NCBI GenBank assembly: GCA_949373085.1
Contig: CASICJ010000028.1
Coordinates: 1 to 64,000 of the forward strand
Direction: 5' to 3'
From: an uncultured Verrucomicrobiales bacterium
Lineage (GTDB): Bacteria > Verrucomicrobiota > Verrucomicrobiia > Verrucomicrobiales > Akkermansiaceae
DNA length: 64,000 nt
Below are positions 27,035-38,913 of this stretch, piece after piece. The position numbers and the translations under genes are program-made. Every line of letters begins with the position of its first letter. The stretch's first letter is position 1. Below the pieces are notes generated by a model, which was given only the letters and a program-made list of their open reading frames with translations, was not told the DNA's origin and made no database searches.

Positions 27035-28372
27035 TTACTTTCTAGGGTCTGTTTTTAAGTCACGTGAGTGCAGGAAATCTTGGTATCCAGCCAGCAGTGA
27101 TTGCGCTTTTTTGGGATGCGATTTCAAGAGATTCGTCTTTTCCGAGAGGTCCTTACTTAAGTCGTAGAGAGCGGTGGCCTTTGCGTTCTTTCCATTTCCA
27201 CGATAACCGTCGGCAATGAGTTTCCACGAACCGATGCGATAGCTCCCGAGGACGACCATCGGTGGGCGTGAGTGCCGGGCCGAGGGATTTGAAAGAACAG
27301 GAAGGAAGCTGTGACTATCGCGTGCGCTCTTCGGGTAGCGCTTCGCATAGTCGACTTTAAGAAGGTCGGCGAAGGTCGCGAAAAAATCGGTGTGGTTGAC
27401 GAGAGCAGAAGTGGTGGTGTTCTCCGGCACTCTTCCAGGCCACTTCACGATGAGCGGTGTGCGGTGTCCGCCTTCCAGGGGCATGGCCTTGTAGCCCGAA
27501 AGCACCCCATTGGCGAGGTGGTTCGGGCAGGTTGACATGTTCTTTTTGGAGGCACCGTTGTCACTGGCGAAGATGACCATCGTCTTTTTATCGAGCCCTG
27601 TGTTCTTGAGAGTTTTCAAAACTTCGCCCACCCAGTGATCCATTTGCACGAGGTAGTCGCCGTAGGGACCTACGCCACTTTTCCCGACGAGGTTTTTTTC
27701 GGGGAGGTGTGGGTTGTGAGGCTCATGCAAAGCGTAATAGAGGAACAAAGGTTTCCGGCCATCAGACTTCGCGTGTTCCTTGATCATCTTGACGACATCT
27801 TCGCAGTAAGTCCGGTTTTGCGTCCTGATGTCTATTGCTTGGCCGACCTGGTTACGGCCGCGGATTGGGAATTCACTGAGACCAGCGTAGTCTCCATGAA
27901 AGTATTCGAACCCGTGATCCATTGGCCCGCCTCGTAGGGTTGACTTGTCGTTGATCGTCTTTTTCGAGGTTCCTGCCGGCAGGTTGAATCCAAGATGCCA
28001 TTTACCAACCATGCGGGTGTGATAGCCCTGATCTTTCAGAAGTTGGGCGATGGTTGATTCCCCTTCATCGATGACCGCGCGTGAACTGGCCAAGGTGTTT
28101 TTGACGCCAGTTCGGGCTGGACTGGTTCCAGTCAGAAATCCGTAACGCGACCCGGTGCAGGTGGCGTGAGGAGCGTGGGCATCGGTAAACCGTAGCCCTT
28201 CTTTGGCCAGTTGGTCGATGTTGGGGGTGGGAATGGAAATGCCCGCATTGTAGACGACGCAATCCCCGTAGCCCATGTCATCGGCGTAGATGAAAATAAT
28301 GTTTGGCCTAGCTGCGAGTAGGCCGGGGGCTGCTGCCGCAATTGAGATGAATAACAATAGGAAGAACTTCAT
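27035..28372 (-). CDS. Secreted sulfatase with non-canonical maturation motif CTGSR
   Basis: Signal peptide from ATG at 28372; RPNIIFIYADDMGYGDCVVYN; CTGSRYGFLTGTSPARTGV; GKWHLGF; MVIFASDNGAS. Confidence 0.9.
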   Translation of the reverse strand: MKFFLLLFISIAAAAPGLLAARPNIIFIYADDMGYGDCVVYNAGISIPTPNIDQLAKEGLRFTDAHAPHATCTGSRYGFLTGTSPARTGVKNTLASSRAVIDEGESTIAQLLKDQGYHTRMVGKWHLGFNLPAGTSKKTINDKSTLRGGPMDHGFEYFHGDYAGLSEFPIRGRNQVGQAIDIRTQNRTYCEDVVKMIKEHAKSDGRKPLFLYYALHEPHNPHLPEKNLVGKSGVGPYGDYLVQMDHWVGEVLKTLKNTGLDKKTMVIFASDNGASKKNMSTCPNHLANGVLSGYKAMPLEGGHRTPLIVKWPGRVPENTTTSALVNHTDFFATFADLLKVDYAKRYPKSARDSHSFLPVLSNPSARHSRPPMVVLGSYRIGSWKLIADGYRGNGKNAKATALYDLSKDLSEKTNLLKSHPKKAQSLLAGYQDFLHSRDLKTDPRK

Positions 28373-28492
28373 GATGAAGGTTTTTGTTTCCAGAGAGCTG
28401 GGACTACGGTTTTCAATTGGTCGGAGAAACACCCCCCCGTTCCCGGATCAAAAAGAGATGGCCTCGAAACGGAGATTAAAATGTGAGTCCTA

Positions 28493-29212
28493 CTATTGCT
28501 TGCGAAGTGGGATATTGAGCGCTCTGAGAACAAGGTTCGAAAGCAAGCGATTACCTTTCTCGTTCAGGTGGACGCCATCCGAGGTGAAAATTCCCTTGGT
28601 GGCATTTTTGGGATTCTCCTTTTTAAGTTGGGTGATAATTTCTTTTCGGAGGTCAAGAAGTTGGGAGCCCGTTTCTTTGGCAACTTTCCGGCTGATGTTT
28701 GAATACTGGTCGAGCCTTTTATCGTCTGGGTTGCTGCCGTCTGACTTCTCACCAATCACCGTTGGAGTACAGAGGATGATCCGGGCCCCAGCCTTCTTGA
28801 TCTTCAAAATCATTTCCTTAAGGCCATTTTCAAAATCCTCTGGCGTCGTCCCTTTTTTGCCTCGGGCAACGACTTTGGGGTGAGTCCAGTGCCAGACGTC
28901 GTTGATCCCGATGTAGATGAAAACAATGGTGGGCTTTTTTTGCAGGACGTCCTTGTCGAGACGCTTTTGGCAGTCGGGGACCTTGTGCCCACCTATGCCG
29001 GCTCCGATCACTTCGATATTTAGATCGGGGTGCGCCTTGGCAATGGCCGCGGAACTCAGGGTGACATAGCCGCTCTTGCGGACTCCGGCGGCGGTGATGG
29101 AGTCGCCGAGGAAGACGATGCGGTCGTTTTTCTTGAGCGGTTCCTGGGCCAAGGCGGTGGCGCTAAAGAAAAGGGCAAGGAACAGGCGGCTGATGATGGT
29201 GAGTGTTTTCAT
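28493..29212 (-). CDS. Secreted SGNH/GDSL-family hydrolase
   Basis: Signal peptide; FLGDSITAAG block I; GINDVW block III; DGVHLNEKGNRLL block V. Confidence 0.9.
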   Translation of the reverse strand: MKTLTIISRLFLALFFSATALAQEPLKKNDRIVFLGDSITAAGVRKSGYVTLSSAAIAKAHPDLNIEVIGAGIGGHKVPDCQKRLDKDVLQKKPTIVFIYIGINDVWHWTHPKVVARGKKGTTPEDFENGLKEMILKIKKAGARIILCTPTVIGEKSDGSNPDDKRLDQYSNISRKVAKETGSQLLDLRKEIITQLKKENPKNATKGIFTSDGVHLNEKGNRLLSNLVLRALNIPLRKQ

Positions 29213-29261
29213 GGAGTGGGCTTGTGAGATTAATACGCAGGTCGTTCGATTGCTTATCTCC

Positions 29262-31133
29262 TCATTTCTGAGGAGGCCGTGCTTTCAGGGCATACTCGGA
29301 GTATTGTTTATCGCGTGCGTCTTTTTTGAAGCCGCCGGGGAAGCTGACGAGGAAGTTGTGCTCATCAATGAGGTTGATGAGGTAGTGGGTGGTCCCTTTT
29401 GGGAGGGTTGCGGTGACGGTTCCATCGGTGTTGAGGGGGGCGGGGGCGCGATACCACTCCTCGTAACGATGGCCGCCGTTGTCGGTATAGAGGAGATTGG
29501 CGCGGGTGACATGGGCACCGTTGTTTTTGAAGACGAAGGTTGCGGTGTTTCCGGTGAGCTTGTGGCTGGTGACGGTGGGGACTTTTTCTTTATTCGCGAG
29601 GGGACGTTTGTAGTTCGGGTTGAGGTAGGGGTAGCTGGCCTTCATCTCAGTGAGGATGCTGGTGAGTTCGTTGTTGAGTTCGACGGTTTTGGTGAGGTGG
29701 GTCTTGGCGAGGTTTTCTTGCTCCCCGATATCGACTCGTCTGGACGTTCCGTTCTTTGTTTCGTATAGCTGGAAGAGTTCGAGTTTTTCGCCCTGCGGGG
29801 TGTAGTTGCGTACGAGCTTGAAGTCGCCCCGACGAATCGAGCTTTCGAGGGCGACGCTGTTTGGGAAGTGCCAGATCATGGTGTCGCGTGGCTTACCGGA
29901 AGCGGTTTTTACGAGGGAGGGGTCGGTGGGGTCGCCCTTGAGAAGTGGGGCTAGGTCGAGGCCATCGAGTGCTTTTCCCTTGGGCATTGGCGTTCCGGTG
30001 AGCGAGAGAACGGTGGGGTAGAAGTCGAGGCCGTTGATCATGACATCGGATTCGATGCCTGCCTTGATCCCGGGGCCGGTGATGATGAGTGGGACGCGGG
30101 TGCCGCCTTCCATGATGGAGATTTTTCCGCGATCGAGCGGGAAGTTGTCGGTAATGACTTCGCCGGGGTGGCCTTCCATTCCGCCGTTGTCGGAGGTGAA
30201 TATGATGTAGGTGTTTTCGATGAGTTTGTGTCCGGGCCAGCGGGGATCATCAGTGGTTTCGAGTTCCTCCACGAGTTGGCCGACGTAGTAGTCGAGCATC
30301 TCGACCATGGCACAATACCAGGGATTCTTTTGGCCTTTCTCTTCCCACTTATGGGCGTGTGATTCGTCGGGGGTGACGCCGAGTTTGGCACAGTATTTTT
30401 TATAGAGCGCTTCGCTGCGGGTGTGGATGGGGGTGTGGACGAGCCAGGTCGCGTAGTAGAGGAAGAAGGGATCGGCTTTGTGCTCCCGAGGAAAGGTGAG
30501 GGCATCGTGGCTGTTCTGATGAAAGGGGAAGCCGTTTTCATCGAGCCGGAAAGGGTCGTTTTTCCGACTCGTGGAGAAGCCAGAGAGCCGGTTCGGCTTG
30601 GCCGGTTTGGTGACCCCCCGGTCCGAGCGAGTCCAATCGAAGCCCTGGTCTTCAGGTTGAGGAAAGGCGTGGTGATTGATCGCCATGTGCCATTTTCCGG
30701 AGTGTCCGGTGGTGTAGCCTCCTTGTTGGAGAGCTTTGGCAAGGGTCATTTCGCCCGCCGGCATGCGGCCACTGTACCAAGGGGGCATCATGGGGTGGGC
30801 GGTGAGGTGGTGGGGCGCGGGAGGGTTGCCGCCGACAACGTGGGTCTTTTGCGCACGGGCAGGATGGTTCCCGCTCATGATGGCGCAGCGCGAGGGTGCG
30901 CAGGTGGGAGCGGGCGAGTAGGCCTGCCAGAATTTGACGCCTTTCTTCGCGAGGGCATCGAGATTCGGTGTCTCCATGGGGGATGGGTCATCGACATCGT
31001 AGCATTTCACATCCTGCCAGCCGAGGTCATCGGTGAGGATGAGGACGATATTGGGCTTCGCAGGGCGCTCGGCAGCATGCAGGTCGCCAAGGAAAACAAC
31101 AAAAACGAGGAGGAAAAATGAACGCATCTGCAA
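29262..31133 (-). CDS. Secreted sulfatase with C-terminal extension
   Basis: KPNIVLILTDDLGWQDVKCYD; CAPSR motif; GHSGKWHM; YIIFTSDNGGMEGHPG; about 100 aa C-terminal beta-rich extension. Confidence 0.92.
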   Translation of the reverse strand: MQMRSFFLLVFVVFLGDLHAAERPAKPNIVLILTDDLGWQDVKCYDVDDPSPMETPNLDALAKKGVKFWQAYSPAPTCAPSRCAIMSGNHPARAQKTHVVGGNPPAPHHLTAHPMMPPWYSGRMPAGEMTLAKALQQGGYTTGHSGKWHMAINHHAFPQPEDQGFDWTRSDRGVTKPAKPNRLSGFSTSRKNDPFRLDENGFPFHQNSHDALTFPREHKADPFFLYYATWLVHTPIHTRSEALYKKYCAKLGVTPDESHAHKWEEKGQKNPWYCAMVEMLDYYVGQLVEELETTDDPRWPGHKLIENTYIIFTSDNGGMEGHPGEVITDNFPLDRGKISIMEGGTRVPLIITGPGIKAGIESDVMINGLDFYPTVLSLTGTPMPKGKALDGLDLAPLLKGDPTDPSLVKTASGKPRDTMIWHFPNSVALESSIRRGDFKLVRNYTPQGEKLELFQLYETKNGTSRRVDIGEQENLAKTHLTKTVELNNELTSILTEMKASYPYLNPNYKRPLANKEKVPTVTSHKLTGNTATFVFKNNGAHVTRANLLYTDNGGHRYEEWYRAPAPLNTDGTVTATLPKGTTHYLINLIDEHNFLVSFPGGFKKDARDKQYSEYALKARPPQK

Positions 31134-31212
31134 ATACTACGCACGAATAGAACGTAACTTGATCCCTATTTTTGAGGACGGAACGATGAGCCTAAAACTT
31201 TTGTGGAAAGCG

Positions 31213-32703
31213 TCACCTGATCTTCTCATCCGGAAGCTCGCCTTTGATCCCTTCGTCCATGGGCATCTTATCTTTACCGCCGGGGTAGGATTCGGCGATT
31301 CGTAGATCGAGTTCTTTTTTGAGTTTCGCGACGGTTGCTTTGTGCTTTTCGTCCGCGATTAGGTTGGTGGTTTCACCGGGATCGCTCTTGAGATGATAAA
31401 GCTCGGCCATGTGCTTGTCCGCAGAGCCGTCACCATGAGGATAGCGTATGTATTTCCACTCGTTGGTGCGGAGAGCTCGGACATTGGGCGTGTAGGGAAA
31501 TTGCTTCTCGTAGTTGTATTCGTAATACCAACTGGTTCTCCAATTCGGATCGCCATTGGTGACGAGATTCTTCCAGGACCGACCCTGGGTTTTCGGGAGC
31601 GGCGGAGCGCCACAGATCTCCAAAATGGACGAGGCAAAATCGAGGGTGAGAGTTTGAGCTTCGATTGTCTTTGCTGTGGTGGTGAGTCCGGGATAGCGAA
31701 CCACCAGCGGGATGCGTAGTGACGGTTCGTGACCAGTGCGCTTGTCCACCATGCCGTGCTCGCCCTCGAGTAGGCCATTGTCGCTGGTGAAGATGAAGAG
31801 GGTGTTGTCGAGCTGGCCGGTCTTTTCCAAATAGGCATAGAGACGCCCCACCGAGTCATCGACTGAAAGCAAAGTGCCCCAGTAGGCTCGCACCATCTTT
31901 TCGAAATTCAGCATTCCGGAGGCGGAGGTATCGGGGAAGTCTTTGCGCCAATCGAAGAGCGGGCCATAGATCCCGTGCCAAGTGCTGAGGCGCTGGCTGA
32001 TCCACTTAGGTTTATCGCCAAGTTGGAAGGCCGTTTCAGGATACGGAACCCTCACCTGATCAAAGCTCTTTTCGTATTTCTTCTCTGGAAAATAAAAGCT
32101 GTGGGGAGCCTTGTGACCCAGCATCAGCATGAAGGGCTTGTCGCCACCTTCCTGCTGCTTGATCCAATTGAGCGCCATATCGGTAACCACAGTTGTGTAG
32201 TAGCCAGGGACAACCTTCCGCTCACCATTATTCGCGCGGAATTCGGTGTCGAAGTATTTTCCCTGTCCACGATGAGTGACGAAGTGGTCGAAGCCGGGAC
32301 GCTTGCTGTCATCGTCTTCGCCCATATGCCACTTGCCGATATAGGCGGTGGTGTACCCGTTGCTTTGGAGCTGACGGGGAAAGGTAGGAAGATCCCTAGG
32401 ATAGTCGGTGAAATTATTCACGACGCCATGGGAATGGGCATAGAGGCCTCCGAGAATGGAGGCCCGGCTGGGTGAGCAAAGCGAGGTGGTGCAAAAATGG
32501 TTTTTAAAGAGAAGACCCTCCTGAGCGAGACGATCAATATGAGGCGTCTTGAGATGCGGATGCCCCATGCAGCCAAGGGCATCGGAGCGCTGGTCGTCGG
32601 TGAGGATGAAAACGACGTTGGGACGAGATGAATTTTGATCAGCGAACAGTGAGGATGAACTTTGAACAAAGAAGAAGGCGAAAAGGACAAGGATGTATTT
32701 CAT
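31213..32703 (-). CDS. Secreted sulfatase
   Basis: [28 protein letters not shown] motif; [39 protein letters not shown]. Confidence 0.93.
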
Positions 32704-32715
32704 GGGAAAGAGAGC

Positions 32716-34137
32716 TTATTTTTTCTCCTGACGGAGTGCGGAGAATACTTCTCCACTTGGTCCAGCGGGAAGCGATTTTTTCCAACCCTCAATCAGAGCG
32801 GTCAGGCGGACGACTTCTTCCTCTTTGGTCTCACTGAGATTGGTCTTTTCGAAAGGATCGGCGACGATGTTGTAGAGTTCCTTGTAGGAACCGTCGTTGT
32901 TGGTGACGAGTTTCCATTGACCATGAACCACCGCAAAGGACACCCAGTGATCGGGCTTGGCTTTACGAGCAGGCCAGGCCGAGTGGGATTTCCAAAAAAG
33001 CGGCTTGGTCCGGACGCTGCCATTCTTTGATCCCTGCATCACTTCGATTTGGTTCACCCCGTCGGGCTGATAACCTTCAGGCAAGGCAACCCCCGCAACC
33101 GCACAAAAGGTCGGAAGAAGATCCACCGCTGAGATCATCGAGGCCTTGTCGATTTTCCCAGCCGCAATTTCCCCGGGCCAACGAACAATGAAGGGAACAT
33201 TGATGCCGCCTTCGAAAAGAGCAGCCTTGTAACCCTTTCGTCCCGCCGTGATTCCCTTAGCAGCATTGATTCCCCACCCCGCACCAGTTGCGGTGTCATA
33301 GTTGAGTTTGAGCTCGCCGGCCGTACTCGCGCGGGCCGGTCCGTTGTCGGAACTAAAGATCACCAGGGTGTTGTCGGTGATTTTCAAACGGTCGAGAGTG
33401 TTGAGCACTTCACCAATGCGGTCATCGGCGTGGGAAAGAACGGAGGCGTAAATAGCATCGGGCCGGCTCTCCATCTCACGGAATCGCCACTCGTATTTCG
33501 GCACGGTATGAAAAGGAGTGTGCGGCTCATGGACCCAGAGATTGACAAAGAAGGGCTTACCCGCCGCAACCGCTTTTTCAATGAAGGCATTCGTATGCAT
33601 GGCGTCTTCGTGGACCGGCATCTGCTCGCCGGAGCAATTAAAAGCACCGTATTCGTCATAACCATACTCAGCCGGAGTGGGCGAATCGGGGATCATGTTA
33701 TTAGCGAGGTGCCACTTCCCATAGTGCGCAGTGGCGTAGCCCGCCTTTTGAAGCATCTTCGGAAGAGTGGGAGCCTTGGTATTAAGCCAGTCCGGCATGC
33801 CACGTTTGGCATTGCTGGGAACCCAGGCAAAATGGCCGTCGATGGCATAACGTGCGGGAAAGTGCCCCGTCATCACCGCGGTACGACTCGGGGAACAAAC
33901 TCCGCTGGCCACGGTGAAGCGATGGAAATCGGTGCCTTCTTTGGCAAGGCGGTCGATATTGGGCGTCTTGACATAAGGATGTCCGTGACAACCAAGATCA
34001 CCCCACCCCCAGTCATCAGCGAAGATAAAGAGAATATTAGGGCGATCAGAGCTTTCGCCCTGACTCTTATTTTCAGGGACTGCGATCGATGGACTCAAAG
34101 TTCGCACAAAGAGGAGAAGAACGAGAAGGCGTTTCAT
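32716..34137 (-). CDS. Secreted sulfatase
   Basis: RPNILFIFADDWGWGDLGCHGHP; CSPSR motif; AHYGKWHL; VIFSSDNGPARA; GGINVPFIVRWPG. Confidence 0.93.
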   Translation of the reverse strand: MKRLLVLLLFVRTLSPSIAVPENKSQGESSDRPNILFIFADDWGWGDLGCHGHPYVKTPNIDRLAKEGTDFHRFTVASGVCSPSRTAVMTGHFPARYAIDGHFAWVPSNAKRGMPDWLNTKAPTLPKMLQKAGYATAHYGKWHLANNMIPDSPTPAEYGYDEYGAFNCSGEQMPVHEDAMHTNAFIEKAVAAGKPFFVNLWVHEPHTPFHTVPKYEWRFREMESRPDAIYASVLSHADDRIGEVLNTLDRLKITDNTLVIFSSDNGPARASTAGELKLNYDTATGAGWGINAAKGITAGRKGYKAALFEGGINVPFIVRWPGEIAAGKIDKASMISAVDLLPTFCAVAGVALPEGYQPDGVNQIEVMQGSKNGSVRTKPLFWKSHSAWPARKAKPDHWVSFAVVHGQWKLVTNNDGSYKELYNIVADPFEKTNLSETKEEEVVRLTALIEGWKKSLPAGPSGEVFSALRQEKK

Positions 34138-34527: not shown

Positions 34528-35652
34528 ATGAATCAGGAACACCCTTCAGAATGCCCAGTCTCAGGAGACCAATCAATTCCCCCGCCCCCTCTAGAATATC
34601 ATGATACTCGTTGGGATCTCTCAGAAGATGCTGATCGCCTTTGTCCGATTCCAAGCGAGCATGCCGAAAGTCTTGAGCAATCCGCCAAATTAGCTTGGCG
34701 AAACTCCGTCCGCTGTATCGGAAGAAGACTTTGGAAAGGGTTGGATGTGATCGATGCACGAAGCCTTAAGGAACCTGATGATATTTTTGAGGCTCTTCTC
34801 ACTCACCTCCGCAAAGCCACCAACGGTGGAAAGATTATTCCCGTCATGACGGTGTTTCGAGAATGGCTTTCGGATGCCCCCGAAATCCGAATTTGGAACC
34901 ATCAATTGATTCGCTATGCGGGTTACGCAAATACGAATGGGAAAAGGCTAGGTGACCCGATGAATGTCGAGCTCACGAGACTCGCACTAAAACTCGGATG
35001 GCAACCGCCATCGGAACGAGGTCATTTCGACCTCCTCCCTATCATTATCCAATCGGGAGAAAAAATACAATGGTACGAACTCCCTAAGCATGAAGTTCAC
35101 GAAGTCAAAATCCGGCATCCCAAATACCCCTGCATTGAGCAAATGGAATTAAAGTGGCATGCAGTTCCAGTTGTTTCGGATATGATTTTTGCGACAGGTT
35201 CTACTCTTCACTCGTGTGCTCCTTTCAGCGGATATTATCTCGGCACGGAAATTGGGGCGCGTAATTTTGCAGACCCAAACCGCTATAATTTATTACCCGA
35301 ACTTGCGAGAGGGCTCGGCCTTGACACCAACAATCGACGGAGTCTCTGGAAAGATCATGCCCTTATAATTCTCAATGAAGCGGTCTTGTGGTCTTTTGAC
35401 ACTGAGGGTGTAGGGATCGCGGACCATCATGGCGCATCTGACGATTTTCTGCATTTCTGTAAACAAGAAACAAAAGCAGGACGAGATGTCAGAGCAGAAT
35501 GGAGTTGGATCGTTCCTCCAATTTCAGGTTCTGCAACATCGGTATTCCATAACCGCTATAACGAATCCGCTGTTTACCCAAATTTTCTTCTTCAGGTAGC
35601 GGCGTGGGAAACAAAGCGAGGGCAGAAGCTTCTTGCCTCACAGGGGATTTGA
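34528..35652 (+). CDS. nos: Bacterial nitric oxide synthase, oxygenase domain only
   Basis: Haem-Cys motif AWRNSVRCIGRRLW (Cys codon about 34714-34716); substrate region CAPFSGYYLGTEIGARNFADPNRYNLL; ALIILNEAVLWSFDTEGVGIADHHGASDDF; pterin-site region AEWSWIVPPISGSATSVFHNRY. 374 aa, with no FMN/FAD reductase domain. Confidence 0.95.
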   Translation: MNQEHPSECPVSGDQSIPPPPLEYHDTRWDLSEDADRLCPIPSEHAESLEQSAKLAWRNSVRCIGRRLWKGLDVIDARSLKEPDDIFEALLTHLRKATNGGKIIPVMTVFREWLSDAPEIRIWNHQLIRYAGYANTNGKRLGDPMNVELTRLALKLGWQPPSERGHFDLLPIIIQSGEKIQWYELPKHEVHEVKIRHPKYPCIEQMELKWHAVPVVSDMIFATGSTLHSCAPFSGYYLGTEIGARNFADPNRYNLLPELARGLGLDTNNRRSLWKDHALIILNEAVLWSFDTEGVGIADHHGASDDFLHFCKQETKAGRDVRAEWSWIVPPISGSATSVFHNRYNESAVYPNFLLQVAAWETKRGQKLLASQGI

Positions 35653-35736: not shown

Positions 35737-38700
35737 TCATGAACGATCAGAATGAAAGCCCAACAGACGCTTCAAAGATCGGCCAATATCGTCAGCAACA
35801 AGGAGAGCGCAGGGAATTAGGAATAAGGTGATGGCGGTGGCAAAAAGAATGCCGTAAGCCAATGAAACTGCCATTGGAATAAGAAACTGGGCTTGAAGAG
35901 ATTGATCCAGCAGCAAGGGGACAAGACCTGCGAAGGTCGTAAGAGATGTCAGGATAATGGGACGGAACCGTCGTGCCCCGGCGGCAAGCGCCGCTTCAAT
36001 AAGAGGCATTCCAGAACGACGCCTCTTATTCACAAAATCAACCATGACAAGCGAGTCGTTTACCACAACACCAGCAAGCGCAAGCATTCCAAAAACCGAA
36101 AGGAAGTTGGGGGTGATATCCATAATCAAATGTCCCAGCAAAGCACCAATCACCCCAAAAGGTACTGCCAACAAAACATAAATCGGCTGAACGACAGAGC
36201 GGAATGGAATCGCCAAGAGTGCGTAGAGCGCAAAAATAAGGAACGCGGCATTAAGCCAGGTTTTCTTCACTGATTCCTCGTGCTCGGCAACATATCCCGT
36301 CCAGAGAAAAGAGAGCCCCTTCACTTTGTCAGTTAATTTGCGAATCTTAGGATCAATCTCTTCGGCAATACCAATAATATCAACGCTGTCGTCTTGTGGC
36401 ATACCACCAATTCGAATCACTTCGGCACCATCATTTCGCTCAACAAATGTCGGAGCCTTAGTGAATCTATAATTCGCCACCGTATTCAGCGAAACTTCCC
36501 CGCCTCTTGGAGAACGTATCTTCAGCCTTGATAAAGTATGGAGCGATTTTCGATCGTCCTTAGGCAAACGAAGCATAATACGGATCTCCTCGCTATCACG
36601 AATGATTCTCTGGGCTTCTTCTCCATAGAAAGCCTGTCTTACTTGTTGCGCAAGAAGTCCTTGAGTGATCCCGAGTTCCGCGGCACGGGGCTTGAGGGTA
36701 AACTCAATCTCATCTTGACCGCGATTAATCTGTGCCCAAGCACCACCAATACCCTCGTACTCTCGCATCAGTTTTTTAATTTCCTCGGCGATCTGATTTT
36801 TCGCCTCCGAATTTGGCCCCCGAAGCTCAAGCGCCATTGGTTCACCACTCCCGGCATTCTCTTTCTGCTCCTCGCGACGCTCTTTTCCGGTAATTTCGGC
36901 ATGAATATAGAACGAATCTGCTTCTTCGATTTCGCCAACCAATTGGGTCCAACGTTTTGCGATTTGTGCATTGGTTGGTCCAGCTTCAGAACGTTCACTT
37001 GGCGGCATTACCTCGACAACAACCTTGCCACGCGATGAGTCAGAACGGCCTTCAAAGTCAGACGATCCAGTGATCCGAGCCACGTTTCGGATCAGGGTCT
37101 CCCCAGTCTTTGGATCGGTGTATTCCTTCTTCAGGATCTCAGTGGCAGCTGTAATACGCTCAATATAGGCGTGTGTCCGCTCTATCGGCAAATCGTTGGG
37201 CAAATTCAGGTCCGCAGAAATACGCAAGTTTTCTACCGCCGGAAAAGAAGCGAATCCCATCCGGCCACCAGCCCAGTATCCAGCCATCGCTATCGCTAAT
37301 GAGATAAAAAGAGCCAAAACCGAAAAACGATAACGCACCGCGACTTTCAAAATCGGAATATAAACACGATCAACAAACCTCTCCATCCCATCAGCAATTC
37401 CTTTTTGAAAGCGCCCAAAACCACCAATGTTTTTCCCCCGTGGACGCACGTGCTTCAGGTGCGACGGCAAGATGAGTTTGGATTCGACTAACGAGAACAA
37501 GAGAACAGGAATGACGACCGGCGGGATCTGTTTTGCAAAGTCGCCCCACCCTCCACTGACGTGTGACAAGGGGACGAAGGCAGCTATCGTGGTCAAGATT
37601 CCAAAGGTCACCGGGACCGCGACCTCTTTTGTTCCAAGAACAGAAGCTTCAAGTGGATCCATTCCAGTCCGTAATTTCGAGAAAACGTTTTCACCAGTCA
37701 CAATTGCATCATCGACCACCACTCCAAGTACGATAATAAACCCAAAAAGACTCATTACATTAGCAGTTATGGGATAGATCTCAAAAAATGGTAGGTCCAT
37801 CGACATCACCAAAACGCCGCCAGCAAAGCTGATGGGAATGCCTAGGACAACCCACAGCGCAACCTGCGGGCGCAGGAACAGGCCGAGAATTAAAAAGACC
37901 AAAACGCACCCCTGAAGTAACGAACTGATTAGCGTGCCGAGACGACCCCGGATCGATAGAGAGCTATCATTCCAAGCATAAAGGTGCGCTCCCTCGGGAG
38001 CGCGTGCCGAAACGTATTCCTTAATACGATCCGAGATCTCAATCGCATCCTCACCGCGTGCCCGCCGAACTTGAATAAACATTGCAGGTCGCCCATTAAA
38101 CTCGACGATTTTTTGTTCCTCCTCAAACCCGTCATTTACCTTAGCAACCTCTCCCAGCATGACGTCGGCACCATTAGCAGCCCGGATCAAGATCTTCTTA
38201 AACTCGGCGGCCTGGTAGGCCTGACCACGTGTCTTGACAACGAGTCGGCCACTATCGCTGCGGATCGTCCCCGCTGTCAGATTGATCGATGAACTACGGA
38301 TGGCATCAGCAAGCTCACGAAAGGTGAGCTTGTAGGCACGCAATTTAGCGAGATCTGCCTCAATTGAGATTTCAGTTTTTCGGACTCCCTGGATATCAGC
38401 ACGACTGACACCCTCCAACTCAAGAATTTCCCGCTGCACTTTCTTAGTGACTTGGAGCAAAGCCGCCTCATCAAATTCACCAGTCACCGCCACACTCAGC
38501 ACCGGCAACCGACCACTGGAATCAGGAATAATAATCTTCGCGCGCTCAGTTTCACCAGGAAACGTCGAGATGGTATCGATGCGGCCCTTGATCTCATCGA
38601 GCAGCTTATCAAGGTCGACTCCTTCCTTCGCCTTGAAGTAAAACTTCGCCATTCCCGGCATTCCGTCGGAATTAATTTCGCGAATACCACTAATCCCCTC

Positions 38701-38913
38701 CAGAGCACGTTCAACGGGAATCAGCACATTTTCCTCGATATCCTTTGGGGTTCCTCCGCGATAGGGCATCTCCATGTAAACGATCTCCCATGCGCTTGAT
38801 TCAGGGATGACCTCCAGTGGCACCTTGTTCCATGCCGCGTTGAAGCCCGCCGCGAGGATCGCAAACATTAACAGGTTGGCTGCGATGCCATTATTGGCGA
38901 ACCAGCGAATCAT
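35737..38913 (-). CDS. RND-family efflux transporter permease
   Basis: 1058 aa; MIRWFANNGIAANLLMFAILAAG; VVLGVVVDDAIVTGENV; two-fold AcrB-like repeats with 12 TM pattern; GVVVNDSLVMVDFVN. Confidence 0.93.
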   Translation of the reverse strand: MIRWFANNGIAANLLMFAILAAGFNAAWNKVPLEVIPESSAWEIVYMEMPYRGGTPKDIEENVLIPVERALEGISGIREINSDGMPGMAKFYFKAKEGVDLDKLLDEIKGRIDTISTFPGETERAKIIIPDSSGRLPVLSVAVTGEFDEAALLQVTKKVQREILELEGVSRADIQGVRKTEISIEADLAKLRAYKLTFRELADAIRSSSINLTAGTIRSDSGRLVVKTRGQAYQAAEFKKILIRAANGADVMLGEVAKVNDGFEEEQKIVEFNGRPAMFIQVRRARGEDAIEISDRIKEYVSARAPEGAHLYAWNDSSLSIRGRLGTLISSLLQGCVLVFLILGLFLRPQVALWVVLGIPISFAGGVLVMSMDLPFFEIYPITANVMSLFGFIIVLGVVVDDAIVTGENVFSKLRTGMDPLEASVLGTKEVAVPVTFGILTTIAAFVPLSHVSGGWGDFAKQIPPVVIPVLLFSLVESKLILPSHLKHVRPRGKNIGGFGRFQKGIADGMERFVDRVYIPILKVAVRYRFSVLALFISLAIAMAGYWAGGRMGFASFPAVENLRISADLNLPNDLPIERTHAYIERITAATEILKKEYTDPKTGETLIRNVARITGSSDFEGRSDSSRGKVVVEVMPPSERSEAGPTNAQIAKRWTQLVGEIEEADSFYIHAEITGKERREEQKENAGSGEPMALELRGPNSEAKNQIAEEIKKLMREYEGIGGAWAQINRGQDEIEFTLKPRAAELGITQGLLAQQVRQAFYGEEAQRIIRDSEEIRIMLRLPKDDRKSLHTLSRLKIRSPRGGEVSLNTVANYRFTKAPTFVERNDGAEVIRIGGMPQDDSVDIIGIAEEIDPKIRKLTDKVKGLSFLWTGYVAEHEESVKKTWLNAAFLIFALYALLAIPFRSVVQPIYVLLAVPFGVIGALLGHLIMDITPNFLSVFGMLALAGVVVNDSLVMVDFVNKRRRSGMPLIEAALAAGARRFRPIILTSLTTFAGLVPLLLDQSLQAQFLIPMAVSLAYGILFATAITLFLIPCALLVADDIGRSLKRLLGFHSDRS

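Follow-up and report, generated by a model that had tools for sequence, protein, structure and literature searches.

An oxygenase-only nitric oxide synthase in a marine Akkermansia relative and the patchy distribution of its family in Akkermansiaceae

The window analysed here is a 64,000-nucleotide stretch of DNA from an uncultured member of the Akkermansiaceae, a marine relative of Akkermansia. Within it, we identified an intact gene for a stand-alone nitric oxide synthase (NOS) oxygenase (nos, 34528..35652, plus strand), which starts with ATG, encodes 374 amino acids and lies in the interior of a 107.7-kb contig. It is the only NOS gene in the assembly. Two genes on the minus strand, both outside the NOS system, flank it: one for a sulfatase (32716..34137; PF00884, E=9.5e-49) and one for an AcrB-type RND pump (35737..38913; PF00873, E=1.9e-150). 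The minus strand at 27038-34137 carries a tandem row of four sulfatase genes and an ORF for a GDSL-like hydrolase, which is typical for sulfated-polysaccharide degradation.

The protein matched the NO_synthase family (PF02898) with E=3.7e-127 and 424.7 bits, far above the family cut-off of 22.7. A sequence search against the PDB gave 81 distinct matches with scores of up to 339.7 bits, and all those listed were NOS. Identity to the Bacillus subtilis and Geobacillus enzymes was 48-50% over 306-310 domain residues. The AlphaFold model, based on an alignment from 40 relatives (pLDDT 87.3, pTM 0.86), had B. subtilis NOS (2amo) as its best structural match (TM 0.80, E 2.2e-37), and the top matches were all NOS. 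Both the ORF and the Pfam search revealed one domain only, i.e., an oxygenase with no fused reductase, and no reductase was found by Pfam among the flanking ORFs. The original prediction of a 374-residue, oxygenase-only NOS that relies on a borrowed reductase is thus supported, including its three motifs, WRNSVRCIGR, TEIGARN and WIVPP, which occupy residues 57-66, 240-246 and 327-331.

Alignment to B. subtilis NOS placed the haem Cys, the proximal Trp, the substrate Glu, the next Arg and the pterin Trp in register. The haem-thiolate motif WRNSVRCIGR (34696..34725, plus strand), with the proximal Trp57 and the haem ligand Cys63, is invariant. TEIGARN (35245..35265, plus strand) provides the substrate Glu241, Arg245 and the bacterial-type Asn246, and WSWIVPP (35500..35520, plus strand) corresponds to the pterin-stacking Trp region (W325/W327); both assignments were based on alignment and conservation. 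The protein also keeps the His and Asn that characterize bacterial NOS. In all these features, as well as in fold and in consisting of the oxygenase only, the protein resembles the NOS oxygenases of B. subtilis and Geobacillus stearothermophilus (1m7v, 2flq), but it differs from them in its first 45 residues and at two positions. Mammalian NOS oxygenase domains share its fold and catalytic residues, although it lacks their zinc CX4C site, calmodulin region and reductase domain. Sorangium cellulosum NOS, a reductase-oxygenase fusion, also has the NOS oxygenase domain, but its fused N-terminal [2Fe-2S]/FAD/NAD reductase is absent here. Pairwise dN/dS values of nos against three sister species were 0.17, 0.15 and 0.13, the first from only eight differences; such purifying selection implies that the gene is maintained.

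The two variant positions are Val216 (35173..35175, plus strand), aligned with B. subtilis Ile218, the NO-release gate (PMC9500659, PMC6104048), and Leu355 (35590..35592, plus strand), aligned with B. subtilis Tyr357, which is mutated to Phe (Y357F) in one of the structures matched by the model (4ugv). It was stated previously that Ile occupies position 218 in all bacterial NOS (PMC6104048). Here Val is found instead, and Val, Leu or Met are also present in many prokaryotic homologues, which implies that this rule is too strict rather than that membership is in doubt; Ile218 is a feature stated in that paper and not a defining feature of PF02898. The Ile218 signature cited for bacterial NOS thus does not apply throughout the group. 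That Val and Leu occur naturally at these two positions is mildly new, and the enzyme's kinetics may differ as a result of both replacements.

It is most likely (probability roughly 0.87) that nos encodes a functional, single-gene, oxygenase-only bacterial NOS, which is predicted to be active with borrowed electrons. Cys63 would bind the haem and Glu241 the L-arginine; a reduced pterin is probably bound too, tetrahydrofolate rather than biopterin. Arginine would then be oxidized in two steps, first to N-hydroxyarginine and then to citrulline and NO, with electrons from a general reductase of the cell that is encoded at another locus. The best candidates for this donor are two diflavin (CysJ-like) reductases in the same genome, whose domain order of flavodoxin, FAD and NAD is also that of the mammalian NOS reductase. 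One, at C1:36464 on contig C1, has a bifunctional-nuclease protein as its neighbour; the other, at C21:9366 on contig C21, lies directly before sulfite reductase and PAPS reductase and is therefore taken to be CysJ. Flavodoxin-domain proteins of the diflavin type were detected in 26 of the 27 genomes of this genus and hence are not NOS-specific. This is in line with the idea that NOS of bacteria draw on general reductases (Gusarov et al. 2008, cited in PMC3701330). As to physiological role, NO-mediated stress protection or local signalling appears most likely. A tie between NOS and biopterin synthesis was considered and rejected, because the PTPS family occurs throughout the genus, in genomes that have NOS and in those that lack it; there it probably serves queuosine synthesis.

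At the N-terminus, the Pfam alignment begins at residue 45 of the protein and position 47 of the profile. The 45-residue segment encoded by 34528..34662 (plus strand) stands in place of the helices with which bacterial NOS canonically begin; when N-termini were compared, these residues were unlike the helices of Bacillus NOS. The segment carries a Cys9-Pro10 motif (34552..34557, plus strand), and Cys-Pro was found in 24 of the 24 complete N-termini of the NOS clade to which the protein belongs, most often 31-37 residues upstream of the domain and in most cases followed by Arg-Trp-Asp. Shuffled segments would give about 5 in 24, a rough yardstick since the N-termini share ancestry and not every start is certain; among other NOS, the motif was observed in 12 of 52 (4.5 expected from shuffling). 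In the AlphaFold model the first 17 residues are disordered, and the Cys-Pro N-terminus of a relative from another family (G359) gave no match to solved proteins even at E 10. An invariant N-terminal Cys-Pro motif across this clade is mildly new. One guess is that the tail is a haem- or thiol-responsive element. A wider reading, tentative and rather unlikely, would make this clade of Verrucomicrobiota a structurally distinct subfamily, with a regulatory or haem/thiol-sensing disordered tail and, in the group around the protein studied here, faster NO release through the Val gate. If the tail does act in this way, NOS activity or haem supply would be controlled through it.

Another possibility is that the enzyme serves a dedicated pathway; TxtD, RufN and PtnF, for example, provide the NO for nitration steps in the biosynthesis of natural products. 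Natural-product NOS do exist (PMC9500659), and in five species of one genus (g12) a clade-A NOS is located near a type III polyketide synthase gene. However, a NOS of this type would be expected in a biosynthetic gene cluster, whereas the neighbours of nos are sulfatases and an RND pump, and no biosynthetic gene adjoins it. In addition, the polyketide synthase is present in all 27 genomes of the genus studied here, with or without NOS, so that the g12 arrangement looks like the local gene order of one genus. A link between NOS and this synthase was therefore rejected, and a dedicated pathway is improbable. In the g12 arrangement itself (L081:5922-9912 and g12 relatives), the genes downstream of NOS, all on its strand, encode in turn a methyltransferase-like protein, an FAD oxidoreductase-like protein and a type III polyketide synthase.

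It might also be argued that catalysis by this enzyme is weak or altered, with NO no longer its main product, since Leu replaces Tyr357, Val replaces Ile218 and the N-terminus is remade. Yet both positions vary freely among NOS that keep every catalytic residue: Tyr357, for example, is missing from Deinococcus and B. thuringiensis enzymes, and Natribaculum has Val at 218. Val is moreover the mammalian residue at this gate, where it has been tied to efficient NO release (PMC9500659), and nos is under purifying selection. We consider such a loss of function quite improbable, somewhat more so than a dedicated pathway.

NOS was found in 74 of 262 species genomes of Akkermansiaceae (7 of 16 genera), and in 45 of the 174 that are at least 90% complete; each carried a single copy, except one genome with two fragments. 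For the phylum as a whole, an evenly drawn set of 394 genomes contained 18 with NOS, in scattered positions. A 2017 study had already reported NOS in a verrucomicrobial metagenome-assembled genome (MAG) and called it common to other reconstructed MAGs (PMC5673642). This freshwater NOS (Opitutae-Tous-C4FEB) resembles ours in being verrucomicrobial and in having no toxin genes adjacent, and differs in taxon (Opitutae), the likeness being one of description and not of sequence. Given both the family counts and the MAG report, this lineage is not an unusual place for NOS, contrary to what was originally predicted, and the synthesis of NO from arginine probably occurs widely but patchily across Akkermansiaceae, a group seldom considered as a source of NO. 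Nor is bacterial NOS restricted to Firmicutes and Deinococcus, from which the oxygenase-only type is mainly known: plasmid records by themselves contain oxygenase-type NOS from cyanobacteria, actinobacteria, alphaproteobacteria and haloarchaea as well as Deinococcus. Thus, nos is a normal feature of its bacterial group and a member of a known enzyme family, and neither this spread nor the Ile218 exception alters the picture of NOS or of its mechanism.

No viral contig matched any of six peptide patterns for NOS. Two records named as Staphylococcus phages (OR850403.1 and OR845001.1) contain a NOS with 43.7% identity to our protein, the same value as the copy in an S. aureus plasmid record; it is likely a Staphylococcus NOS, with host DNA in these records. 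A Desulfobacteraceae match (L007) was rejected as NOS, since the similarity is short and the ORF appears methyltransferase-like.

To place the protein, we reconstructed a maximum-likelihood tree of 85 NOS domains. It fell into a clade of 26 sequences, distinct from the Bacillus enzymes and from another verrucomicrobial clade, which comprised 33 sequences. NOS sequences of its genus were spread over several parts of the tree, and a constraint to a single clade was rejected (AU p 5.6e-39). Together with the single NOS per genome, this split implies exchange or replacement over long times, and NOS has clearly moved among these bacteria on that scale. On the other hand, four other species of the genus have NOS with 89-99% identity to ours, and sulfatase and/or RND neighbours are common to the sister genomes wherever contigs reach the flanks. 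With close orthologues in at least four congeneric species, at the same site where assembled, nos is not a recent import, and these comparisons indicate that it is stable on a short time scale in its genus. The suggested horizontal acquisition therefore holds for the deeper history of the family and fails for recent times; the isolation of a gene between unrelated neighbours, from which it had been argued, is in itself no evidence of transfer.

Recent import, or contamination of the assembly, is the least probable of the alternatives and was rejected on conserved synteny and orthologues: the gene is isolated, the G359 genome from another family has a NOS 75% identical to ours whose flanks are not those of nos, and two congeners have the orthologous RND pump with no NOS beside it, but nos is interior to its contig and its GC and GC3 (48.0% and 42.5%, against window gene means of 51.2% and 54.2%), although lowish, are within 2 SD. 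The AU test did not separate a placement of the G359 sequence inside the group of our protein from one just outside it (p 0.365). Both congeners have a different NOS elsewhere in the genome, and in the one that was read gene by gene a sulfatase comes next to the pump.

Across the clade of our protein, no conserved operon partner or neighbour gene of NOS was found, and neighbours differ between subclades. Family searches of the genome, an 81% complete assembly on which such absences rest, found neither an H-NOX sensor nor a globin. In the genus (g1), globin was present in 0 of 14 genomes with NOS and 4 of 13 without (Fisher p 0.041), and H-NOX in 1 of 14 and 9 of 13, respectively (Fisher p 0.0013); since neither shared ancestry nor the incompleteness of assemblies enters into the counts, they are leads only. 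The near-exclusion of NOS and H-NOX may reflect only shared ancestry.

Several relatives showed other gene arrangements. At L079:3859-5001, an IS110-type transposase directly adjoins a clade-A NOS and is a possible means of NOS movement. In another NOS clade of the same family (L067:5960-10379, L070, L077 and L094:6007-11473), NOS adjoins genes on the same strand for a GAF/PAS histidine kinase and a LuxR-type response regulator, which suggests NO signalling or regulated NOS expression there. In another family of the class (genome G409, L139:3-2648, minus strand), NOS is fused to an N-terminal reductase: two stretches of the cyclic-nucleotide-binding type come first, then a [2Fe-2S] domain resembling BFD and a weak match to an FAD-binding domain, and finally the NOS, which is cut by the contig end. 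This fusion is similar to the Sorangium type in domain makeup, and its cyclic-nucleotide-binding part would suggest a regulated enzyme.
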